Below, one piece after another: positions 20,768 to 51,958 of a stretch of DNA of 64,000 nucleotides. Origin of the DNA: Candidatus Obscuribacter phosphatis (GTDB lineage: Bacteria > Cyanobacteriota > Vampirovibrionia > Obscuribacterales > Obscuribacteraceae). Location of the stretch: assembly GCA_001899315.1 (NCBI GenBank), contig MOYA01000002.1:690013-754012 (forward strand), in the 5' to 3' direction. Within the stretch, counting starts at the first letter, position 1. Each line of letters starts with the position of its first letter. The notes under the pieces are model-generated. The model searched no databases, was not told where the DNA came from, and saw only the letters and a list, made by a program, of their open reading frames with translations. The translations under genes were made by a program, and so were the position numbers.

Positions 20768-23700
20768 ATGACCGATAAGAACGCTGCGGTGGTAAAGGAC
20801 AAGGCAGGGCAGAAGCCCGAGTCTTCCGAGCAGCCGGATGTCAAAGCAAAGGTTGCCAGCGAACAACAGGGCGAAGATGCCACAAAGATACTGCACAGCA
20901 TCGATCGCAGCAAAGAAGCAAGAGGTCTTGCCAAGGTAGAACTGTATGATTCGTCCGAAGCTAAAGGCAAGACCCATGAAGTCAAGCCTGGCGAAACCCT
21001 TTCAGGTATAGTCGATAAGGCTCTCACTCGCAAAGAGGGCGAATCGTCCACCGCTTACGTCAAGCGCCTCTATGAAACAGTGGCGGAGGTGGCGAAGAAA
21101 AACGGGCTGGTTGATGCCGATAAGATTATGCCCGGGCAGAAAATTAAGCTTGATGGCGTGTTGCCCCAAGCCGGAGCCGGGGACAAGCCTCAAGCCGGAG
21201 ACAAACCCCAAGTTGCAGACAAGCCCCAAGCCGGAGCCGGGGACAAGCCCCAAGCTGGAGACAAACCCCAAGCTGGGGACAAGCCTCAAGTTGCAGACAA
21301 GCCCCCAGTCGGAGCCGGAGACAAACCCCAAGTTGCAGACAAGCCCCCAGCTGGAGCCGGGGACAAGCCCCAAGTTGCAGACAAGCCTCAAGCTGGAGAC
21401 AAACCCCAAGCCGGAGCCGGGGACAAGCCTCAAGTTGCAGACAAACCCCAAGTTGGAGACAAGCCCCCAGCCGCTCCAGTTGATGCTGTCAAAGTCGGCA
21501 AAGCCGTTGACGATGTTTATGCTGCCACCGAAGGCAAATGGATCGGTGTCGATAAAGAAAAACTGAACAAAACTCTTGAGGGTCTTAGTCCGCAAGAAAA
21601 GCAGGCACTGGATGCTGCCTACAAAGAAAAGCATGGCAAGCCGCTTTCTGAGATGTTGCGTGGACAATTGAGCGGCGATGATTTGACCAAAGCTCTTTCT
21701 AATCTCACCGGACAAGGTGATGCTCAGCGCACCGCCGCCGCCATAGATCGCGCTGCCAATGGTGGCTTGACCGGGGCCGGCACTGATGAGAAAACAATCG
21801 AAGAACTCTTGAAGGGCAAAAGCAAAGAAGAGATCAAAGCCATTGATCAGGCTTACCGCCAGAGAACCGGTATTAGTCTGGAAGACGAGATGCGCGATGA
21901 GTTCTCCGGCTCTAAGTTGACTAAGTTTCTTGATTTGGCCAAAGGCAATAATGATGATGCCGCCCGGCTCAATGCCAGTCTGGAAGAGCACAAAGAATGG
22001 GGCGTTGATGCGCGCAGCAACAGCACTGTCGAGAAGGACATCCGCGATACACTTGCCACTCTCAATTCTAAGCAAATTGCCGAGCTTGAGCAGACCTATC
22101 AAGAGCGCTACGGCAAGTCACTGAAAGACAGTCTGCTGCAAGACAAAAATTTGCCGGAAGAAACCAAGCAAGCCCTGGAAATCTATCTGAAAGGCACAGA
22201 TAAGCGTAGTCCCGATGATACGCTCAAACTAGCCGAACTCGGTCTCAAATCCGGCAATCAAGATGTTTTCCAAGAAGCGTTTCGTGATGCCTCCCCGGAA
22301 GCTCGGGCCAAGTTCTTGGCTGAAGACGGCGAAGCCAGAGTCAAGAAAGCTTTTGGCGAAGACAGTGATGCCAGCCGCCGTGCTATGGATTATGTGCGTG
22401 ACGGTAAGCTCGATGTTGCCACCAAAGTTCGCGATAATTCCAGTTGGCTCGGTGACAATGAAGAGGCTATTGAACAAGCTCTTGGTCAGATGAGCGACGC
22501 CGAAAGAGCAAAATATTTGCAAGGCAAGCGTTTGGCTGATAGTAAGGCTGATGTCTCGAGTTTGAACGCCGCAGACAAAGAAGGTCTGGATTATTATCAA
22601 AAGCTGCGCACCGCCATGGAAGGTGCTGGCAATGAAAGAGAATTGGCCCGCTGGGAAGACCTGATCAAGACTGGCAAAGAGGGCTCTCTGGTTGGACAGC
22701 TGGCTAAACACGGCGGTATTTTCGATGACAGTATGGACTCGGTCCTCGGCACCATAGAAGGCATGTCTAAGAAAGACTGGGAGCGTCTCAAGTCTGATCC
22801 GGAGTATCGTCGAGAAATAGAGAAAACGCTAGCTATAGATCTGAGCGATTCTGAGATGCAGCGCGCTCGTGAATTGCTGGATAAAAAGTCAGCGGCGGCG
22901 ACCTTTGAAGAGAGCAAGTCCGCCAATCGACCGCTTACTGAAGTCTTAGCCGACCGGCAGGGATTTTTCAGTGATGATGAAGAAGGCATTATCAAGGCTC
23001 TAGAGAATATGAGCCCGACTGAGCAAGCTAAGTACAGAAACGATCCTGAATACAAGAAAGAAATTGATCGTTTGGTGGCAGGCGGTATGGAACGCGGCGC
23101 CGAGCTCAATGCCGCCATGTCCATTCTCGACCGTGTCTCGCGGGGCGAAAAGCCTGAGTCGGACATCGTTTCCAAACTAGAGATGCACTCTACAAACTTC
23201 AATGTCGACGAGACAAAAGTGGTGCAAGATCTGGAAGAAGCTTTCCGCAAAGATCCTACATTGCGAGAGCGGCTGAATAATCCGCAAAGTGAAGCCGATA
23301 AGGCTATGGCTAAGCAATTTGACTCAGCCTTGCGCCGGGCTTTAGACCCTGATGAATACGAAAAATATGCCAAGCCTTTGCTTGAGACCGGTAGAATACC
23401 GATTGAAGTTAAAGCTGATCTCTACAAGGGTATCTTCAACGACGATGAGAAAGGTTTCTTTGAGTCTCTAAAGAAAGACCGCGCCACTGATGCTGACTGG
23501 CAAGAAGTTCTCAACAATCCCGATAAGACACTTTCTTTCTTGTCTAGCGAAGAGCGCGAAGTAGCTTTAAACATCGCCAGACAAAAGGGCGAGATGCGAC
23601 CGGAAGATGAGTTGCGCGCAGCCATGGTGGGTGTAGGCACTGACGAAGCAAAGATCAAAGAGATTCTTGCCGGGCTGAAGCCTGAAGAGAAAGAAGCTGT

Positions 23701-26700
23701 ACGTCAGGCATATGAGAATAAGTATGGAGCATCTCTAAAGGGCGACGTGCTTGATGAGCTGGGTGGCGGCGAGAAGATGGAAGCCGCCAGAGCCTTGAGG
23801 GGACCGCAGACTGCCCGGGAAGCATACAACGATGCGCGCTCGGAAGTATACGAGAGCGCCGATGGTCTTGGCCGTGCCTGGGTTGATAAGGTTTGGGACG
23901 GCACCGGTCATATGACCCAAGACCAGCTCGATCAATACAGCCGCATCACCGCCGATTATTCTAGAAAATACCAAGAGTTGCCGGCTAGTGAAAGAGAGCA
24001 GTTTCAAAAAAGTCTCTATGAATCGCTTGAACTGTACAAAAAGTCAGAGAGCGCTGCCGCCGATGCCGTGGTTGATACTGCCATCATCGCCGCCGGTGTA
24101 GCTGGTGCCAAATTTACCGGCGGTGTCAGCCTCTCTCTGCTTGCTTACACCAGTGTAGGTGGTGCTCTCTTCAAGGTGGGTGCCAAGTCTGCTCTTATGG
24201 GCGCCGACTATGATTTTCAGAGCGCGCAACTAGTCAGTGATGCTGCCACTGGTGCTATTGATGCTGCCACCATTGTGCTTGGTCCGGCTCAGGCGGCGCA
24301 GCTGCTCAAGCTTGGTGAGCGCAGCGCCGCTACCGCCGCCCACGGTGTTTTGTCTCAAGCCGATGACTTGGCTAAGACTGCCGGACGCTCTCTTTTGAAG
24401 GAAGGCAGCTCTGAGACTCTGGAGCGAGAGCTTAAAGAGAAGGTGGCTGTGGCCATAGCCAACGGTTCCGACTCAATAGACGATAAAGCTATGAACGAAT
24501 TGGCAAAGAGAGTGGCCGCCCAAGGTGAAGACATCCCGCAGGTGCAAAGACTGCTTACCGATGAGCTTAATAAGGCTATTCGGATTGAGGCATCTAGAGA
24601 GTTGATCGCCGGCGGCAGAGAAGTGGCTCTTAATACCGCCTCTGGTATTGTCGGTGGTGCATTATCGGGCGCTGTCCGTGGCGGCATCGAGGGTGAGTCG
24701 GTGCAAGCCGCCCTCACAGAAGGTGCCGTCGGCGCCCTATCCGGTGGCGCCATGGCCGGTGGCTTCTCTATCGCCTTCAAGGGCTTGGGCAAGGGGCTTT
24801 CCAGTCTCAGGCGGGATGGCAGTGTCATTCATGCCCAGGGCGTCGAAGCTGAGCTTGGTAAGCGCCTGAACAGTGACGGACGGGTCTCTGAAGTGGTGAC
24901 GCCCGCTGGTCGGGCCCAAATTGAATATCATCAAGGCGGACCTCTTGAAGGGGCAGTGCGAGAAGCCAGAACACCTGACGGTAGAGTTTTTAAGAGTGAA
25001 GACGGCCTGAACTGGAAGATTTCCGACAAAGACGGTACTACTGACGCCAGGGGGCTGTTTAAAGTCGACAGCGACGGCAATATGACCTGGCAGCCTGAAG
25101 TTGGCGCCAAGGCAGTCTTTGGTGCCGATGGCAGAATCTCGGAGTTTGATCATATCTCTGGGCGGAAACTAGAGGTGGCTGCCGACGGCTCTGTGGATGC
25201 AGTCAGTGGAATAGCCGGCGGCGCTAAGTTTCAATATGACCAGAGTGGAGCCCTCAAACAAGTTGATTTCCATGATGGCAGGGTGCTTTCCAGTGATGCC
25301 GGTAAATACAAACTCACCGATAAAGACGGCAAGGTTACTGAGCTTAGTGGCGAAGTAAAACTGACCACAGATGGCAATATCAGAGTCGAGTCGGCAGAGG
25401 GCGTGATGCTCATTTCGCCGGAGGGCGGTTATACAAAATTCTCGCCCCAGGGTCAGGCTATCGAGATGCATAGACCGGAGGGCGTTTACAAGTATGGCTA
25501 TGACGCTGATGGCAAGCTTAATCAAGTTACTAAACCAGACGGCAGCTATCATCGAGTCAATGAAGATGGCGATTGGGCTAATTTCTCACCAGAGGGTAAG
25601 GAAGTTGGCTGGGGACGCGACTCATACCAGGTCTTGCCCGATGGCTCGTACCGTGTCCTCAGTGGAGACCATGCTATCTATTATGCGCCTGACGGTACCG
25701 ATAGAGTCTTGCATGTAACCGAAAATAGGTTACAGTCGGTTGTGCATCTGGATGGTCGAAGAGAGTACTTTGATAGACCTGACGCCAAGGTCTTTGGGCG
25801 CGACGGTCTTGAGATCAATAAAGTAAAAGACCAGTTTAAGCGCCTTGGTATCACCGAGAACGAAAATTCTATTGCCCTGGTCGAGCGCGAACTGAAGGAT
25901 GTGAGAGCGATTGGTCCTGATGGTTCGCCCGTCAGCGCCTACGATAGCCTCATGTCGGATCCGCGTCTAAGCGATAGACAGAAAGCCAATATCATTCAAA
26001 ACCTTGCCGTCGTGCGTGAGCACTTTGCTCAGTTCAGACAAGGCGATCGTATGCATCCAGATCCTGAGGTTAACTGGATTCATACCCAGGGCGAAATGGC
26101 TAAGGTGCTAGAGGTCAGTCGTAAAGCCGGTCTGAGCGCCGATGAGGTGGAAGACGCTGTCTTGGCTTCTATGTATTCCGATTCAGTTAAGTTCGCCTTC
26201 CCGCCGCCCGCCGGTGTCGATGCCAACTTCTTCACCCACCATATAGACGGTGCCATTGCCGCCCAGCACAGTCTGCAGCGTCAAGGCTATGCACCTGAGC
26301 GCATAGATAGAATCTTGCAGGCGATCAAAGAGCATCAAATTGCTCCCCCAGAGTTTATGGGGCAGCTCTATCTCAATGCCAAGATCAAGCCAGGGCTGGA
26401 TGCTAATTTGAAGGCTGGGAAAATCAGTCAGGAGCGCTATGATGAACTGAAGAAGGTCTTGGATGAGATGACTGTGGTCGGACCTGACAAAGTACCGCGC
26501 CTGAAGCCGATGGTCGAAGTTGACAGCTGGCCTAAGGTGCAGAATGCCGATGGTAGCTGGGAGCTCAAGTTTACTAATGACCAGAAAGACCTCTTGAGAT
26601 TAGCCGGCATCGATAGCTGGTCTGTGCCTGTCAATCCCATTGATGCTCCTGGGTTTAAACAACTCTCTCGTGCCGAGCAAGAAAACTTACTTAGTCGCTA

Positions 26701-29416
26701 CAAGATTTCCACCACACTTATTGACGGCGATGGCGTCGATAACTATGCCACTCTCGGTGGTGCAAGCAAAATTGTCGCCATTCGTGGTCCCGGCACCATG
26801 TTCAAAGACGGCAATGTTTGGCAGTCTATCGCCTCAGTCGATGCCAGTTTTAGAGATGCCTATAAAGTTCTTTCTAAAGAAGGGCGTGAAGTGGCCGATG
26901 CCAGCTTGGCTAGCCGCAATGCTCTTTTGCATGACGAGAAAAACGGCATTCAGGCACAGATGCTCGAATGGCTGCAAACAAAAGGCTTGAAGCCGGAAGA
27001 CGTTGAGTATCTCAAGAAGGACGGGGCACTCAAATATCCCGAACCTCTTAATGCTGCACAGAGCGCCCGTGTGACCGAATTAGAGAATTTGCTCAAGGCG
27101 GGCGATAACGGTGATCCGATGGTGCGTGAAGCCGCCGCTACTGAACTGCGGCAGCTCAAATATAACGGTCTAAGCGAAGCAGAAATTACCCAGTTTGAAT
27201 TGGCCAAAGAAGTTAGAGCCAAGATGACCGACCTCTTGCGGGCTGGTCATCGCACCGGCGGCGATCTTCCCGGCGAGTTCCCTGTGGCCAGATCTTTGCC
27301 TCGCTCCGACAATGCCGAAGAGCTTCTCAAACCGCGTCCCTTCGCCCTACCTGAAGCTACAGGACCGGTAACTTTGTTGCCTGATGGTGCCACAGTCGCT
27401 CCTTTTGAAAGAGGCACAATCACCCGCAGACCCGATGGCTCAAAAGTGGTGCTTGACACCGTTCGTGATACCAAATTTGAATACGACCCGGCCGGCAGAA
27501 TCGTTGAGGCTAGTCACAACGGACGGGTGCGAAAGTTTGGTTACGACCAAGATGGTCGTTTGCAGCGCTTTGAAGATGAGCTGGGGCAGAAGCTTTCTAG
27601 AGAAGGCAGCGGCGACGCTTGGTCGGTCGAAGTCAAGAAAGCCGATGGCACGATAGAGAAAAAAGGTCTTGGCATTGGTGCAATGGTGGCCGAAGGTGAT
27701 GGATCGATTCGCCGGGTCAAGAGTCTCTCTGATGGCGGTAGCTATACAGTGGAAGGACTGGACGGTTCTGTTCTAGAAGTGAAAAAAGGCTTCAGCCAGT
27801 ATAGTCATGCCGATATTATTCATGAACGTAAAGAGATTGAGCGTTTGAGCCGCGATGCCTTCCCCGAGGCAGCCAGAAAAGAGCGTTTCGATAAATTGGT
27901 CAAGGAATTCGAAGATGCCGGTCTGGCAAGAGACATGAATGCAAACCAGCGCGCCATCTTTTTGAAGAATATCAATCGCTTGCTTGAACCAAACCCGACT
28001 GCTGTAATTGGTGATGCCGAGAGAGCTAATCTGGCAGAGTTAGCCCTCTTGCATGCAGTTAAACCGACAACTGTCGACCAAGGCTGCAACGGTACCTGCA
28101 ATGTCACCACTTTGGAAGTGCGCAATTATATGAATGAGCCTCAGCGTAATGCCAAGCTTTTGGCTGATATCGCCATTGATGGCAAGTTTGTCACCACAAG
28201 TGGTGCGGTAATTGACCTTAATAAAGTCGGGTTCGGTCTAAGTCCAGACTTTGAGGCTTTGCACGCACTGAAGCTGCAGAATGAAGGAAAACTTGATCCC
28301 GCTTCCATCAAAGCCGATGGCGCCAGAGACTACAGCAGTCAACTGCTTGAGACTGCCATGCTCAATACCTACTGGCAGGGCAACAAGCATATTATTGTCG
28401 CTGGCAAGAAGCTCGATGGTGGTGATTTCGCCTACGATTCAAAAGGCAATATTCTTGGTCCTGTAGATGCTAAGAAACCATTGGAGCCTGTCTTTGATGA
28501 TAAGGGCAATAAGCTGAGCACAATTGGCAGTGCTAAGAGACTTTATCGAGAAGATGGTATCGAATATAGTGCTGATGACTTGTCTAGGCTGGTTTATACC
28601 GAGAATGGTCTTGTCGCTGGTGTAAGCGCACCTGGCTCAATTACTGAAATTTTCGATAAGTCCGGTGCTCGTTTACGCACTTTGGATGCCGGTCAACCAG
28701 GTTATGACAAAGACGGCAATCAGATTCTCTATGTCGCCCGCCGCGGCGAGACGAAGTACGAGAAAGTGGCACGGAACGGCTATGAGTCCGAGCAGGTTGT
28801 CTTTAGCTGGGGCGATAGGTCCATACCGCTAAGCGACAGCAAGGGCAAGAAACTAAGCGGCTTGAGTATTTCTGAACTTGAAGATGTAAACAGGGTGTCT
28901 TCTGGAAGCGATGCTACCGGCTACGCCATTGCCTATCAGAAAGATGGTCTGGATTATCGAGGCGCCCACGGTGTCAAAGACGAAGAATCTCTCTCCAATC
29001 TGCTTGAGCGTTTGCAGAATGAGAAGAAGCTACCGGCGGTATTACAAGTACATACCAGTCAGCCGCCCTTTTCTGGGCTGAGCGGTGTGAGATCGGCTTG
29101 GAGCACAGAAGGTGGCTGGCACGTGGTCAATATCCATTCCTTCGATAAAGAAACCGGTATGGTGCGCTTCTCCAATCAATGGGGTTCACGTCATGATTAT
29201 CTAGAGGAGGGAGTTCCACTCAAGACCTTGTTTAATGCTATGCAGCCCACCAAAGCCAGTGAAATAGCCGAAAATGAAATCTATAAGAAAATCAAGAAAG
29301 GGGCGGTTGTCTCAGCTCTCGCCTTGGGCGGCGCTGCCGGTGGTGCCGGACTCTTCTTTGTCGGTAAATCAATCTACGATAGATATTCTAGTGATGAACA
29401 AGCGAGGTCGAGATGA
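20768..29416 (+). CDS. Giant multidomain protein: LysM, annexin repeats, YD-like repeats, calpain-like peptidase
   Basis: A 2882-residue protein with no signal peptide. Domains in order: a LysM-like module (about 68-128; HEVKPGETLSGIV, IMPGQKIKL); GDKPQ repeats (134-236); annexin-type repeats near 240-460 and 943-1010, the clearest being GAGTDEKTIEELL and GVGTDEAKIKEIL followed by QAYRQRTG or QAYENKYG; Ala/Gly hydrophobic segments (1098-1180, 1278-1340); YD/RHS-like repeats (1371-1677, 2198-2330); a possible HD-like stretch (1771-1857; THHIDGA, KEHQI); and a calpain-like peptidase region (2436-2811). The last has QGCNGTC (Cys2444), GGWHVVNIHS (His2785) and FSNQWG (Asn2803), mirroring the calpain QGxxGDC, His and NxWG elements. 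A membrane segment lies at 2846-2870. Annexins bind acidic phospholipids with calcium, so a calcium-responsive membrane-associated protease is a reasonable inference, not a demonstration. Confidence 0.75.
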   Translation: MTDKNAAVVKDKAGQKPESSEQPDVKAKVASEQQGEDATKILHSIDRSKEARGLAKVELYDSSEAKGKTHEVKPGETLSGIVDKALTRKEGESSTAYVKRLYETVAEVAKKNGLVDADKIMPGQKIKLDGVLPQAGAGDKPQAGDKPQVADKPQAGAGDKPQAGDKPQAGDKPQVADKPPVGAGDKPQVADKPPAGAGDKPQVADKPQAGDKPQAGAGDKPQVADKPQVGDKPPAAPVDAVKVGKAVDDVYAATEGKWIGVDKEKLNKTLEGLSPQEKQALDAAYKEKHGKPLSEMLRGQLSGDDLTKALSNLTGQGDAQRTAAAIDRAANGGLTGAGTDEKTIEELLKGKSKEEIKAIDQAYRQRTGISLEDEMRDEFSGSKLTKFLDLAKGNNDDAARLNASLEEHKEWGVDARSNSTVEKDIRDTLATLNSKQIAELEQTYQERYGKSLKDSLLQDKNLPEETKQALEIYLKGTDKRSPDDTLKLAELGLKSGNQDVFQEAFRDASPEARAKFLAEDGEARVKKAFGEDSDASRRAMDYVRDGKLDVATKVRDNSSWLGDNEEAIEQALGQMSDAERAKYLQGKRLADSKADVSSLNAADKEGLDYYQKLRTAMEGAGNERELARWEDLIKTGKEGSLVGQLAKHGGIFDDSMDSVLGTIEGMSKKDWERLKSDPEYRREIEKTLAIDLSDSEMQRARELLDKKSAAATFEESKSANRPLTEVLADRQGFFSDDEEGIIKALENMSPTEQAKYRNDPEYKKEIDRLVAGGMERGAELNAAMSILDRVSRGEKPESDIVSKLEMHSTNFNVDETKVVQDLEEAFRKDPTLRERLNNPQSEADKAMAKQFDSALRRALDPDEYEKYAKPLLETGRIPIEVKADLYKGIFNDDEKGFFESLKKDRATDADWQEVLNNPDKTLSFLSSEEREVALNIARQKGEMRPEDELRAAMVGVGTDEAKIKEILAGLKPEEKEAVRQAYENKYGASLKGDVLDELGGGEKMEAARALRGPQTAREAYNDARSEVYESADGLGRAWVDKVWDGTGHMTQDQLDQYSRITADYSRKYQELPASEREQFQKSLYESLELYKKSESAAADAVVDTAIIAAGVAGAKFTGGVSLSLLAYTSVGGALFKVGAKSALMGADYDFQSAQLVSDAATGAIDAATIVLGPAQAAQLLKLGERSAATAAHGVLSQADDLAKTAGRSLLKEGSSETLERELKEKVAVAIANGSDSIDDKAMNELAKRVAAQGEDIPQVQRLLTDELNKAIRIEASRELIAGGREVALNTASGIVGGALSGAVRGGIEGESVQAALTEGAVGALSGGAMAGGFSIAFKGLGKGLSSLRRDGSVIHAQGVEAELGKRLNSDGRVSEVVTPAGRAQIEYHQGGPLEGAVREARTPDGRVFKSEDGLNWKISDKDGTTDARGLFKVDSDGNMTWQPEVGAKAVFGADGRISEFDHISGRKLEVAADGSVDAVSGIAGGAKFQYDQSGALKQVDFHDGRVLSSDAGKYKLTDKDGKVTELSGEVKLTTDGNIRVESAEGVMLISPEGGYTKFSPQGQAIEMHRPEGVYKYGYDADGKLNQVTKPDGSYHRVNEDGDWANFSPEGKEVGWGRDSYQVLPDGSYRVLSGDHAIYYAPDGTDRVLHVTENRLQSVVHLDGRREYFDRPDAKVFGRDGLEINKVKDQFKRLGITENENSIALVERELKDVRAIGPDGSPVSAYDSLMSDPRLSDRQKANIIQNLAVVREHFAQFRQGDRMHPDPEVNWIHTQGEMAKVLEVSRKAGLSADEVEDAVLASMYSDSVKFAFPPPAGVDANFFTHHIDGAIAAQHSLQRQGYAPERIDRILQAIKEHQIAPPEFMGQLYLNAKIKPGLDANLKAGKISQERYDELKKVLDEMTVVGPDKVPRLKPMVEVDSWPKVQNADGSWELKFTNDQKDLLRLAGIDSWSVPVNPIDAPGFKQLSRAEQENLLSRYKISTTLIDGDGVDNYATLGGASKIVAIRGPGTMFKDGNVWQSIASVDASFRDAYKVLSKEGREVADASLASRNALLHDEKNGIQAQMLEWLQTKGLKPEDVEYLKKDGALKYPEPLNAAQSARVTELENLLKAGDNGDPMVREAAATELRQLKYNGLSEAEITQFELAKEVRAKMTDLLRAGHRTGGDLPGEFPVARSLPRSDNAEELLKPRPFALPEATGPVTLLPDGATVAPFERGTITRRPDGSKVVLDTVRDTKFEYDPAGRIVEASHNGRVRKFGYDQDGRLQRFEDELGQKLSREGSGDAWSVEVKKADGTIEKKGLGIGAMVAEGDGSIRRVKSLSDGGSYTVEGLDGSVLEVKKGFSQYSHADIIHERKEIERLSRDAFPEAARKERFDKLVKEFEDAGLARDMNANQRAIFLKNINRLLEPNPTAVIGDAERANLAELALLHAVKPTTVDQGCNGTCNVTTLEVRNYMNEPQRNAKLLADIAIDGKFVTTSGAVIDLNKVGFGLSPDFEALHALKLQNEGKLDPASIKADGARDYSSQLLETAMLNTYWQGNKHIIVAGKKLDGGDFAYDSKGNILGPVDAKKPLEPVFDDKGNKLSTIGSAKRLYREDGIEYSADDLSRLVYTENGLVAGVSAPGSITEIFDKSGARLRTLDAGQPGYDKDGNQILYVARRGETKYEKVARNGYESEQVVFSWGDRSIPLSDSKGKKLSGLSISELEDVNRVSSGSDATGYAIAYQKDGLDYRGAHGVKDEESLSNLLERLQNEKKLPAVLQVHTSQPPFSGLSGVRSAWSTEGGWHVVNIHSFDKETGMVRFSNQWGSRHDYLEEGVPLKTLFNAMQPTKASEIAENEIYKKIKKGAVVSALALGGAAGGAGLFFVGKSIYDRYSSDEQARSR
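21170..21473 (+). repeat. GDKPQ/ADKPQ tandem repeat region
   Basis: About 300 bases are built from 15- to 24-base units encoding GDKPQ, ADKPQ and AGAGDKPQ blocks. They form a Pro/Lys/Asp linker between the LysM-like module and the annexin repeats. The units are multiples of three, so length variation keeps the frame. A linker of this kind could cross peptidoglycan. Confidence 0.9.
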
Positions 29417-50173: not shown

Positions 50174-50202
50174 TTTTCTTCTCCTTTTAAAAAGCACAAA
50201 AA

Positions 50203-50229
50203 AGCCGCAACTTTTCTTTAGTTGCGGCT
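50203..50229 (-). terminator. Attenuator terminator in the aspS leader
   Basis: On the minus strand AGCCGCAACT pairs perfectly with AGTTGCGGCT (10 bp, 7-base loop) and is followed by TTTTT. Only 29 bases separate it from the aspS ATG, too little for a separate promoter. Transcription into aspS must therefore pass through it. Confidence 0.8.
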
Positions 50230-50253
50230 CTCTAGTCGATGGTCTTAGTTAAT

Positions 50254-50331
50254 TTATCGCTTCAAACATGACAAAGTGAACCGCGGTGGGCGGTCGTCAT
50301 TGTCATTGTGGTTGGCGCTGAAGCTGAACAT
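50254..50331 (-). CDS. Leader peptide of aspS, Asn/Asp-rich
   Basis: A 25-codon frame with ATG at 50331 and TAA at 50254. Residues 7-13 read NHNDNDD, encoded by AAC CAC AAT GAC AAT GAC GAC, i.e. three Asn and three Asp codons in seven. It begins about 24 bases after the predicted transcript start and ends 24 bases before the terminator stem. The Shine-Dalgarno site is weak (AGAGAG about 12 bases upstream). Ribosome stalling at these codons when Asp- or Asn-tRNA is short would favour read-through into aspS. The role is inferred from architecture. Confidence 0.65.
   Translation of the reverse strand: MFSFSANHNDNDDRPPRFTLSCLKR
50278..50284 (-). promoter_or_regulatory. Candidate antiterminator strand in the aspS leader
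   Basis: On the minus strand GCGGTTC (50278-50284), within leader codons 16-18, can pair with GAGCCGC (50224-50230), which overlaps the left arm of the terminator. The pairing is 7 bp with one G-U, extendable by two more pairs after one mismatch. It lies about 9 bases after the Asn/Asp codons, where a stalled ribosome would leave it free or nearly so. Confidence 0.55.
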
Positions 50332-50361
50332 AATTGTCGATTTCTCTCTACTGCTAAATCG

Positions 50362-50390
50362 ATGATATGTAAGAAGGCAATGTCGGTCAA
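50362..50390 (-). promoter_or_regulatory. Promoter of the aspS leader
   Basis: On the minus strand, -35 TTGACC (50385-50390) and -10 TATCAT (50362-50367) are separated by exactly 17 bases. The predicted start is near 50355. Confidence 0.65.
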
Positions 50391-50409
50391 TCGAAAATTG
50401 CGCAAAGTA

Positions 50410-50460
50410 AAGTTCTAAATGCAAGAACTTACCAAGTTCTAAATGCAAACGCAAGAACTT
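50410..50460. repeat. Two tandem small hairpins after the lipase-like gene
   Basis: AAGTTCT/AGAACTT arms occur twice (50410-50416 with 50424-50430; 50434-50440 with 50454-50460), with loops sharing AAATGCA. They overlap the stop codon of the lipase-like gene and may end or stabilise its transcript. Confidence 0.55.
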
Positions 50461-51958
50461 ATTCGGTTGGCTTTGCTTCTTGTTGATTTAGTTCTTTCTT
50501 GGCCAGTTTGCCTGTGTCTGGCGCATCGAAAGCCATAATATCCTGCAAAATCCAGTCGAAAATTTCCTTTTGCGGTTCGTGCGGATTTATTTCGTCTTTG
50601 ACATGGTTTTGCACAGCCGCCTGAATTGGATTAACCGGTCTGACGCCGTCGATAAAAGTGAGGTGATCGACATTGCGGAAAACTCGGGCTTTGCCAACAT
50701 CTAGGCGCGACTTGATTTTTTCCAGCTCGGCTTCTTTTGAAACGCATTGTTCTTTGGCCAAATCCGGCGGCAGGAAAATAGCGCTGGAAACCGGCGTGAT
50801 GCCGTCGTTCATGACAAAGACAAAGGGTGTACCGGCTGCTTTGGCTACAGACTTAGGCACCTGGAAGTTGGCGATGTCTCTATTGAGATATTCCAAGACC
50901 GGATGCTCTCTGGCCATATGGGCAGGGAAGGAAGTGGAGACTAGGAAAAGTGGATAGAGAAAAGCGTTTTCGAGATAGCGCTTTGCCCGTGGCTGCAAAT
51001 AAGGATTGACTATGTAGCCACCATAGGTGATGAGTTTTTCGCGGGCGGTTTTGATGCTGTTTACCGCTGCCAATCTCTTGTTTTCAGTATTTTCGATGGT
51101 TAGTTTGCCGCTCGGTCCGAAGGGCAGTTTAGACCAGAAACGACCAACATCGGGAATGGCTCCGTCGGCATTATCCCAGGTCAGATCTTTTTGCAGATTG
51201 GGATTCTTTCTAAAGTACAGACCAAAGGCTAGGTTATGGTCTATACGGCTCCAGGGCCAGGAAAGTCTTTTGTAGACGGTGTAAGCGCGCCAGTCTTTAC
51301 AGAAAAGCGGCGAGCCGTGGAAAGGTGTTCCCATGGTGAAGAGCATCTTCACTTTTGGCTCAATGTTGGCATCGGTGAATGCTTCATAGGTTAAATTGCC
51401 GCCCATACTAAGAGCCATTATGGCAATTGGTTTTTTGCCGCCAACTTCATAGAGTTTGTTGAAAGCTTCTTTGAACATCGGCAGCACGGTTTCTATACGG
51501 TCGAGGCTCGAATAGCGGCACATATAGATTTTGTAAGCTGCGTTGAAGTCTTTGTGTTTGGTCAGTTTCTCCGCCACTTTCTGCCAGCGGAAATAATGAT
51601 AGAACTCGCCGCGCAGTCCGTGCACCATCAGAAAGGGTGTGCGATCGCCCAGTGGTTCGTGGTCGTATTCGTAAATCTTGACATCGGTCGGGCTTTGTTT
51701 CAATTGTCTTCCGGCTGGAAGGCTCTCGAAATGATTAAGCACCGATTGAGACACAAGGGAAGAAGAAGTTTTATCGCTTTGCAGTGAAGTCAAGCGCGAG
51801 CTATCTGCAAGAGCTGGAAGGGTGGCACAGCTTGTCAGGGTACAAGCCAGTATTGCTGCCGCAAGACCCGTCTTCACTTTGGCGACCCGATTGCTAAACG
51901 CGACGAAAGAAGAATTTTTATCAGGCCAGTGCGGTTTTTGCCGGGTTTGATGGTACAT
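50459..51958 (-). CDS. Alpha/beta-hydrolase lipoprotein (lipase/esterase-like)
   Basis: A 499-residue protein with a long basic leader, then a hydrophobic segment ending CTLTSC, a lipobox. The hydrolase core shows the oxyanion HG in FLMVHGLRGEF, the nucleophile elbow ALSMGGNL, an Asp in VMNDGITPVS and a His in NVDHLTFIDG, in the canonical order. It has a long insertion between the elbow and the Asp, probably a lid. The substrate is likely a lipid or ester in the envelope. The start is near the divergent promoter shared with the MGDG-synthase-like gene. Confidence 0.75.
   Translation of the reverse strand: MYHQTRQKPHWPDKNSSFVAFSNRVAKVKTGLAAAILACTLTSCATLPALADSSRLTSLQSDKTSSSLVSQSVLNHFESLPAGRQLKQSPTDVKIYEYDHEPLGDRTPFLMVHGLRGEFYHYFRWQKVAEKLTKHKDFNAAYKIYMCRYSSLDRIETVLPMFKEAFNKLYEVGGKKPIAIMALSMGGNLTYEAFTDANIEPKVKMLFTMGTPFHGSPLFCKDWRAYTVYKRLSWPWSRIDHNLAFGLYFRKNPNLQKDLTWDNADGAIPDVGRFWSKLPFGPSGKLTIENTENKRLAAVNSIKTAREKLITYGGYIVNPYLQPRAKRYLENAFLYPLFLVSTSFPAHMAREHPVLEYLNRDIANFQVPKSVAKAAGTPFVFVMNDGITPVSSAIFLPPDLAKEQCVSKEAELEKIKSRLDVGKARVFRNVDHLTFIDGVRPVNPIQAAVQNHVKDEINPHEPQKEIFDWILQDIMAFDAPDTGKLAKKELNQQEAKPTE

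Follow-up and report, generated by a model that had tools for sequence, protein, structure and literature searches.

Multivalent attenuators include those of thr (Thr and Ile) and ilvGMEDA (Ile, Val and Leu). Among aminoacyl-tRNA synthetases, leader-peptide control is known or predicted for pheST, trpS, leuS, hisS and cysS (PMC1262725, PMC2965389, PMC8632094), with leader attenuators of trpS and leuS in Streptomyces (PMC1262725), of hisS type in bacilli (PMC2965389), and the cysS uORFC-8-2 in Rhodobacterales (PMC8632094). The non-discriminating aspS2 of Clostridium has been placed under T-box control (Saad et al. 2012, 2013, as cited in PMC4206432). In Deinococcus and Thermus, AspRS1, AspRS2, AsnRS, GlnRS and GatCAB are found together (PMC4206432).

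Here, we describe an element located upstream of an aspS gene in a DNA stretch of 64,000 nucleotides (the window), from a genome that its named relatives place in Obscuribacterales (Melainabacteria, Cyanobacteriota). The sequence comparison allows us to propose, with high confidence, that this element is a ribosome-mediated transcription attenuator controlling a second aspartyl-tRNA synthetase. The best explanation is an attenuation of classical type, whose amino-acid specificity, target and phylum are all new.

Organisation of the aspS2 Locus

The original prediction, made from the sequence of the window, had described a promoter, a 25-codon leader containing NHNDNDD, a GCGGTTC strand, a terminator, a ribosome-binding site and the ATG of aspS on the minus strand, and all of these parts lie where it had located them (Table 1). 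It had overlooked the ability of GACCGC, which comes immediately after these Asn/Asp codons, to pair with GCGGTT.

Table 1. Coordinates in the window of the aspS2 leader elements.
Feature	Position	Strand	Basis or remark
Promoter: TTGACC (50390-50385), 17-nt spacer, TATCAT (50367-50362)	50362..50390	-	Sequence and orthologue comparison
Leader ORF, 25 codons and stop (MFSFSANHNDNDDRPPRFTLSCLKR)	ATG 50331 to TAA 50254	-	Sequence and relatives
Asn/Asp control codons N7 H8 N9 D10 N11 D12 D13 (NHNDNDD)	50293..50313	-	
Region 1, GACCGC	50290..50295	-	Possible protector strand for region 2 (GCGGTT)
Region 2, GCGGTTC	50278..50284	-	Antiterminator 5' strand, within leader ORF
Region 3 core, GAGCCGC	50224..50230	-	Common to antiterminator and terminator
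Intrinsic terminator, AGCCGCAACT / AAAGAAA / AGTTGCGGCT and T run	50198..50229	-	
Terminator stem, 10 bp	50229-50220/50212-50203	-	3' arm (50212-50203) is region 4
Terminator T run	ends 50198	-	
aspS2 ribosome-binding site, AGGAG	50181..50185	-	
aspS2, archaeal-type AspRS, 412 aa	48935..50173 (ATG 50173)	-	Aspartate--tRNA(Asn) ligase family

The gene preceding this locus in the 64-kb window has the same direction as aspS2 and terminates at 50459. An imperfect direct repeat, TAAGTTCTTGC..TTTAGAACTT, occurs in two copies at 50405-50462, in the interval from the upstream gene to the promoter, and is present as a single copy in the sister genome. Elsewhere in the window, a very long ORF (20768-29416, 2882 aa) precedes a series of genes that share its strand.

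In the window, the Asn/Asp run is only modestly unusual, since 2 of 200 shuffles were equally good, and the terminator is within chance for its region (one found and 1.4 expected in shuffles). The whole leader folds better than its shuffles (z -3.8), and the duplex between region 2 and the terminator 5' arm reaches -18.1 kcal/mol, a value as good as which was given by 0 of 200 shuffles. The hairpin between regions 1 and 2 has 6 bp, with p = 0.08 for the window alone. It is the conservation in 37/37 orthologues that places the element beyond chance.

Identity of the Synthetase and Genomic Context

The aspS gene of the window encodes a second, archaeal-type AspRS (AspRS2) and not the housekeeping AspRS, an identity that the original prediction had missed. 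Its product scores 492.9 bits against NF003483, above the cut-off of 353, and 342.2 against TIGR00458, below the cut-off of 368.4. Its closest solved structure is the non-discriminating archaeal-type AspRS2 of T. thermophilus (1n9w/3kfu), and its active site is of the aspartate type (QSPQ..K), reading AQSPQFYKQ or AQSPQFYRQ across the whole leader-bearing clade. AspRS2 likely charges both tRNAAsp and tRNAAsn.

The same genome (G000) also encodes a bacterial-type AspRS (AspRS1), AsnRS, GlnRS, AsnB homologues and GatB, the last being the protein from which GatCAB was judged there. Its tRNAAsn carries the U1-A72 pair (TCCCGAG...CTCGGGA) that GatCAB requires (PMC4206432), and its tRNAAsp has G1-C72. 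Since AsnB homologues are present, asparagine may not be in short supply. Several genomes having both aspS2 and the leader (G003, G007, G014, G024, G030, G033, G063 and G064) yielded no GatB in the search, which weakens the transamidation rationale in them. Close relatives of these genomes do carry GatB in genera g12, g13 and g23; a loss across the whole of g23 was considered and rejected, three of its members possessing the gene.

Conservation of the Leader among Orthologues

Orthologues were picked by protein similarity alone, never by their leader, and the leader statistics are thus not circular. After removal of duplicates, the comparison set contained 37 distinct, readable upstream regions from about two dozen genera, and in every one of them the order promoter, short Asn/Asp ORF, region 2 and terminator is kept. 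A promoter of the form TTGAC-N16-18-NANNNT precedes the run in all 37 orthologues, when 1.3 would be expected in shuffles; being consensus-like and upstream of the leader, it argues against a start of aspS transcription downstream of the hairpin. The Asn/Asp run is located in an open frame in 37/37 (that of L030 was placed by hand, the scan having chosen another stretch), and an intrinsic terminator follows with the same regularity (those of L014 and L028 were read by eye). No orthologue has lost either the run or the terminator.

Near region 2, every leader has at least one Asn codon and at least two Asp codons, with no Glu there. This supports the earlier suggestion that the leader would sense both products of the enzyme. 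Between codons -11 and -4 from region 2, Asn or Asp occupies 236 of the 296 positions and Glu none.

The reading frame itself has been maintained. In the sister genome, the leader ORF is free of indels and conservation restarts at its ATG; genera g12 and g23 keep the ATG after a sequence of variable length, and gaps within their frame are multiples of three. Several leaders have a weak Shine-Dalgarno sequence and uncertain start codons.

Covariation of the Alternative Helices

Covariation was computed on the alignment of the 37 leaders. Pairing in the terminator helix (3:4) reaches 95.1%, and 57 cells show changes on both sides, versus 16.6 in shuffles. The antiterminator helix (2:3) is paired at 75.6% versus 71.4%, with a covariation score of 0.229 versus 0.166 in shuffles. 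Sliding the pairing partners reduces the values of both helices. In L010, L019 and L047, regions 2 and 4 both carry a substitution that compensates one in region 3. The duplex of region 2 with the terminator 5' arm can be formed in 37/37 leaders, at -13 to -23 kcal/mol, and in most of them only 0-4 of 200 shuffles matched it. The hairpin between regions 1 and 2 has a mean z of -1.4 versus shuffles over the 37 leaders, most values being negative, and is weak or absent in L014, L017, L019, L024, L025 and L030.

Taking these data together, the pairing of GCGGTTC with GAGCCGC at the base of the terminator, as originally proposed, is sustained by the energy of its duplex in the window and by covariation. 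The logic of trp/pheS-type attenuation, also part of that proposal, is supported by conservation in 37/37 orthologues and by the covarying 2:3 and 3:4 helices; the alignment of related leaders reveals conserved Asn/Asp codons and covarying stems, as anticipated.

Distribution of the Element

A covariance model matched 41 of the 50 genomes of the family, a group of non-photosynthetic relatives of cyanobacteria, with essentially one match per genome, at aspS2. The lone extra match is weak (G015:C21), and was set aside: it contains an Asn-rich stretch (7/10), but in low-complexity surroundings. Of the nine genomes with no match, six gave no full AspRS2 (G004, G010, G019, G021, G029 and G062), in G060 the contig stops near the gene start, and in G011 (L030) the leader is present although the model missed it. 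The remaining one, G026, has an AspRS2 (G026:C4:64001-65227, L183) without leader, which belongs to the same family, falls outside the leader-bearing clade at the end of a long branch, and is probably a separate acquisition. The leader-bearing AspRS2 proteins form a clade with 100/100 support, in a tree that places long branches such as L030 with less certainty.

An upstream scan of AspRS2 homologues of other phyla revealed no terminator-linked Asn/Asp leader. Two near-identical Lachnospiraceae loci (L060 and L065) have an upstream acidic stretch (6/10) that includes Glu and Gly. Similarly, no such element was seen before AsnRS, AspRS1 or gatB in the genomes checked. Weak 5/10 Asn/Asp windows occur upstream of one asnB of the genome under study, one AsnRS gene (G007) and one gatB (G031). 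A pattern search for Asn runs in eight genomes returned chiefly AAC repeats, with similar counts in the backward control.

Codon Geometry and Proposed Mechanism

The position of the codons with respect to region 2 is informative about how the leader could work. Over the 37 leaders, Asn codons peak at -11 to -7, and Asp codons concentrate at -7 to -4 and prevail at -6 to -4; the enrichment in both spans -13 to -4, and at -1 just 1 of 35 codons is either. The ribosome footprint reaches some 13-15 nt beyond the A site, and thus a ribosome stalled at the control codons would leave region 2 free. In most leaders, some 10 nt separate the end of region 2 from the stop codon, so that a ribosome that has reached the stop would cover region 2 in part, and the terminator starts 20-43 nt past the stop. 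In L006, L007, L021, L028 and L047, the stop falls before or inside the region 2 duplex, and masking by a ribosome at the stop codon cannot therefore work quite as drawn in these five leaders.

From these positions we infer a sequence of stalling or read-through by which both tRNAs would be sensed. Transcription would begin near 50355, and a ribosome would translate the 25-codon leader. With ample supplies of both Asn-tRNA and Asp-tRNA, the ribosome would cross region 2 and reach the stop, which lies some 20 nt ahead of the terminator; region 2 would then be covered or folded onto region 1, and the 3:4 pairing would end transcription before aspS2. When either charged tRNA is scarce, the ribosome would stall at the Asn/Asp run before its leading edge gets to region 2; the latter could then pair with region 3, so that the terminator could not form and aspS2 would be made. 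AspRS2 would thus very probably be synthesised only upon shortage of charged Asn- or Asp-tRNA. If the enzyme is non-discriminating, as we infer, it would yield Asp-tRNAAsp and, together with GatCAB where present, Asn-tRNAAsn via Asp-tRNAAsn. Since both products would derive from AspRS2, one enzyme could answer both shortages.

On balance, we favour a two-input attenuator, in which interleaved Asn and Asp codons would induce a non-discriminating AspRS when either charged tRNA is short.

Alternative Explanations

The same attenuator might respond to Asn tRNA as its sole signal, the Asp codons being passengers. Asn codons do outnumber Asp codons at -11 to -4 (152 vs 84), and tRNAAsp is already served by AspRS1. 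However, the two or more Asp codons kept in each of the 37 leaders are difficult to reconcile with passengers, and, among the residues one mutation away from Asn, Asp alone is frequent (84, when Thr appears 10 times, Ser 7, Lys 3, and His, Tyr and Ile once each). Moreover, L021 and L030 have one Asn and four Asp, and the residue most often found closest to region 2 is Asp (28/37 at -6). We therefore consider an Asn-only signal unlikely.

It could also be thought that the nascent acidic chain destabilises or arrests the ribosome, as in the Mg2+-sensing mgtL, and that ions or the translation state are sensed. Acidic nascent stretches can disturb ribosomes, and the run contains several Asp; nevertheless, it has no Glu and almost no Pro, Asn is dominant in it, and the target is the tRNA synthetase matching the amino acids of the run, all of which makes this explanation very unlikely.

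Far less credible still, with scarcely any probability, is a leader binding tRNA directly (T-box) or a metabolite. The clostridial precedent, as reported through PMC4206432, gives some ground for it, and in Anaerosacchariphilus polymeriproducens a T-box (L076:2614-2841) immediately precedes the AspRS2 homologue; the remaining Lachnospiraceae AspRS2 loci scanned had no T-box above threshold. Against it, neither the leader of the window nor nine related loci gave any Rfam match, RF00230 included, and conservation is of the reading-frame type, with in-frame gaps and third-position changes. The Rfam scan of the whole stretch returned only a sub-threshold snoRNA match outside the leader.

Equally improbable is that the hairpin merely terminates the upstream gene, the small ORF being incidental: although that gene shares the direction of aspS2 and terminates at 50459, a promoter and leader precede the terminator in 37/37 orthologues, and region 2 covaries with the terminator arm. 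Finally, a leader of threonine codons (TTMTMTT), read in a different frame that starts near 50405 and is open in the window, can be practically dismissed, because relatives with AAT/AAC runs read Ile or stops in other frames and the sole frame kept across relatives is that of Asn/Asp.

Significance of the Proposed Attenuator

If the two-input attenuator is correct, the ribosome would monitor both end products of AspRS2, one of them completed by GatCAB, and the leader would parallel, with a ribosome as sensor, the clostridial T-box that responds to two tRNAs. It would also be the first such leader-peptide attenuator in Cyanobacteriota, as far as the literature searched shows. The original prediction knew of no leader-peptide control for this enzyme type, and none was found in the open-access literature searched, which contained no earlier Asn/Asp leader-peptide case and no case in this phylum. 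Ribosome-mediated attenuation would be extended to asparagine and aspartate, to an archaeal-type second AspRS, and to a phylum for which it seems not to have been described. A use for the redundant AspRS is also suggested, as an emergency enzyme for shortage of Asn- or Asp-tRNA. Because Asn and Asp codons are mixed in every leader, the tRNA specificity of AspRS2 can be predicted in a clear and testable manner, and about two dozen natural variants are available in the clade for studying how attenuators evolve.

Comparison with Known Systems

With Thermus and Deinococcus, the window's genome shares the enzyme family and the gene set (AspRS1, AspRS2, AsnRS, GlnRS and GatB), and differs in having AsnB homologues as well; we know of no leader control for the AspRS2 genes of those genera. 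As in thr and ilvGMEDA, one leader peptide carries codons for more than one amino acid, although those attenuators control biosynthetic operons and the aspS2 leader would control one tRNA synthetase. From the classical synthetase attenuators it retains the short leader ORF with codons of the enzyme's own amino acid, the mutually exclusive antiterminator and terminator, and the synthetase gene downstream; unlike them, it has two amino acids, matching a probably non-discriminating enzyme, and is found in Cyanobacteriota/Melainabacteria. Finally, it resembles the clostridial T-box, as the latter is presented in PMC4206432, in that a redundant second AspRS would be controlled by tRNA charging through conditional termination, and in that two tRNAs could be sensed. 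The difference lies in the sensor, since the T-box RNA binds uncharged tRNA directly, whereas in the aspS2 leader this role is proposed for the translating ribosome.
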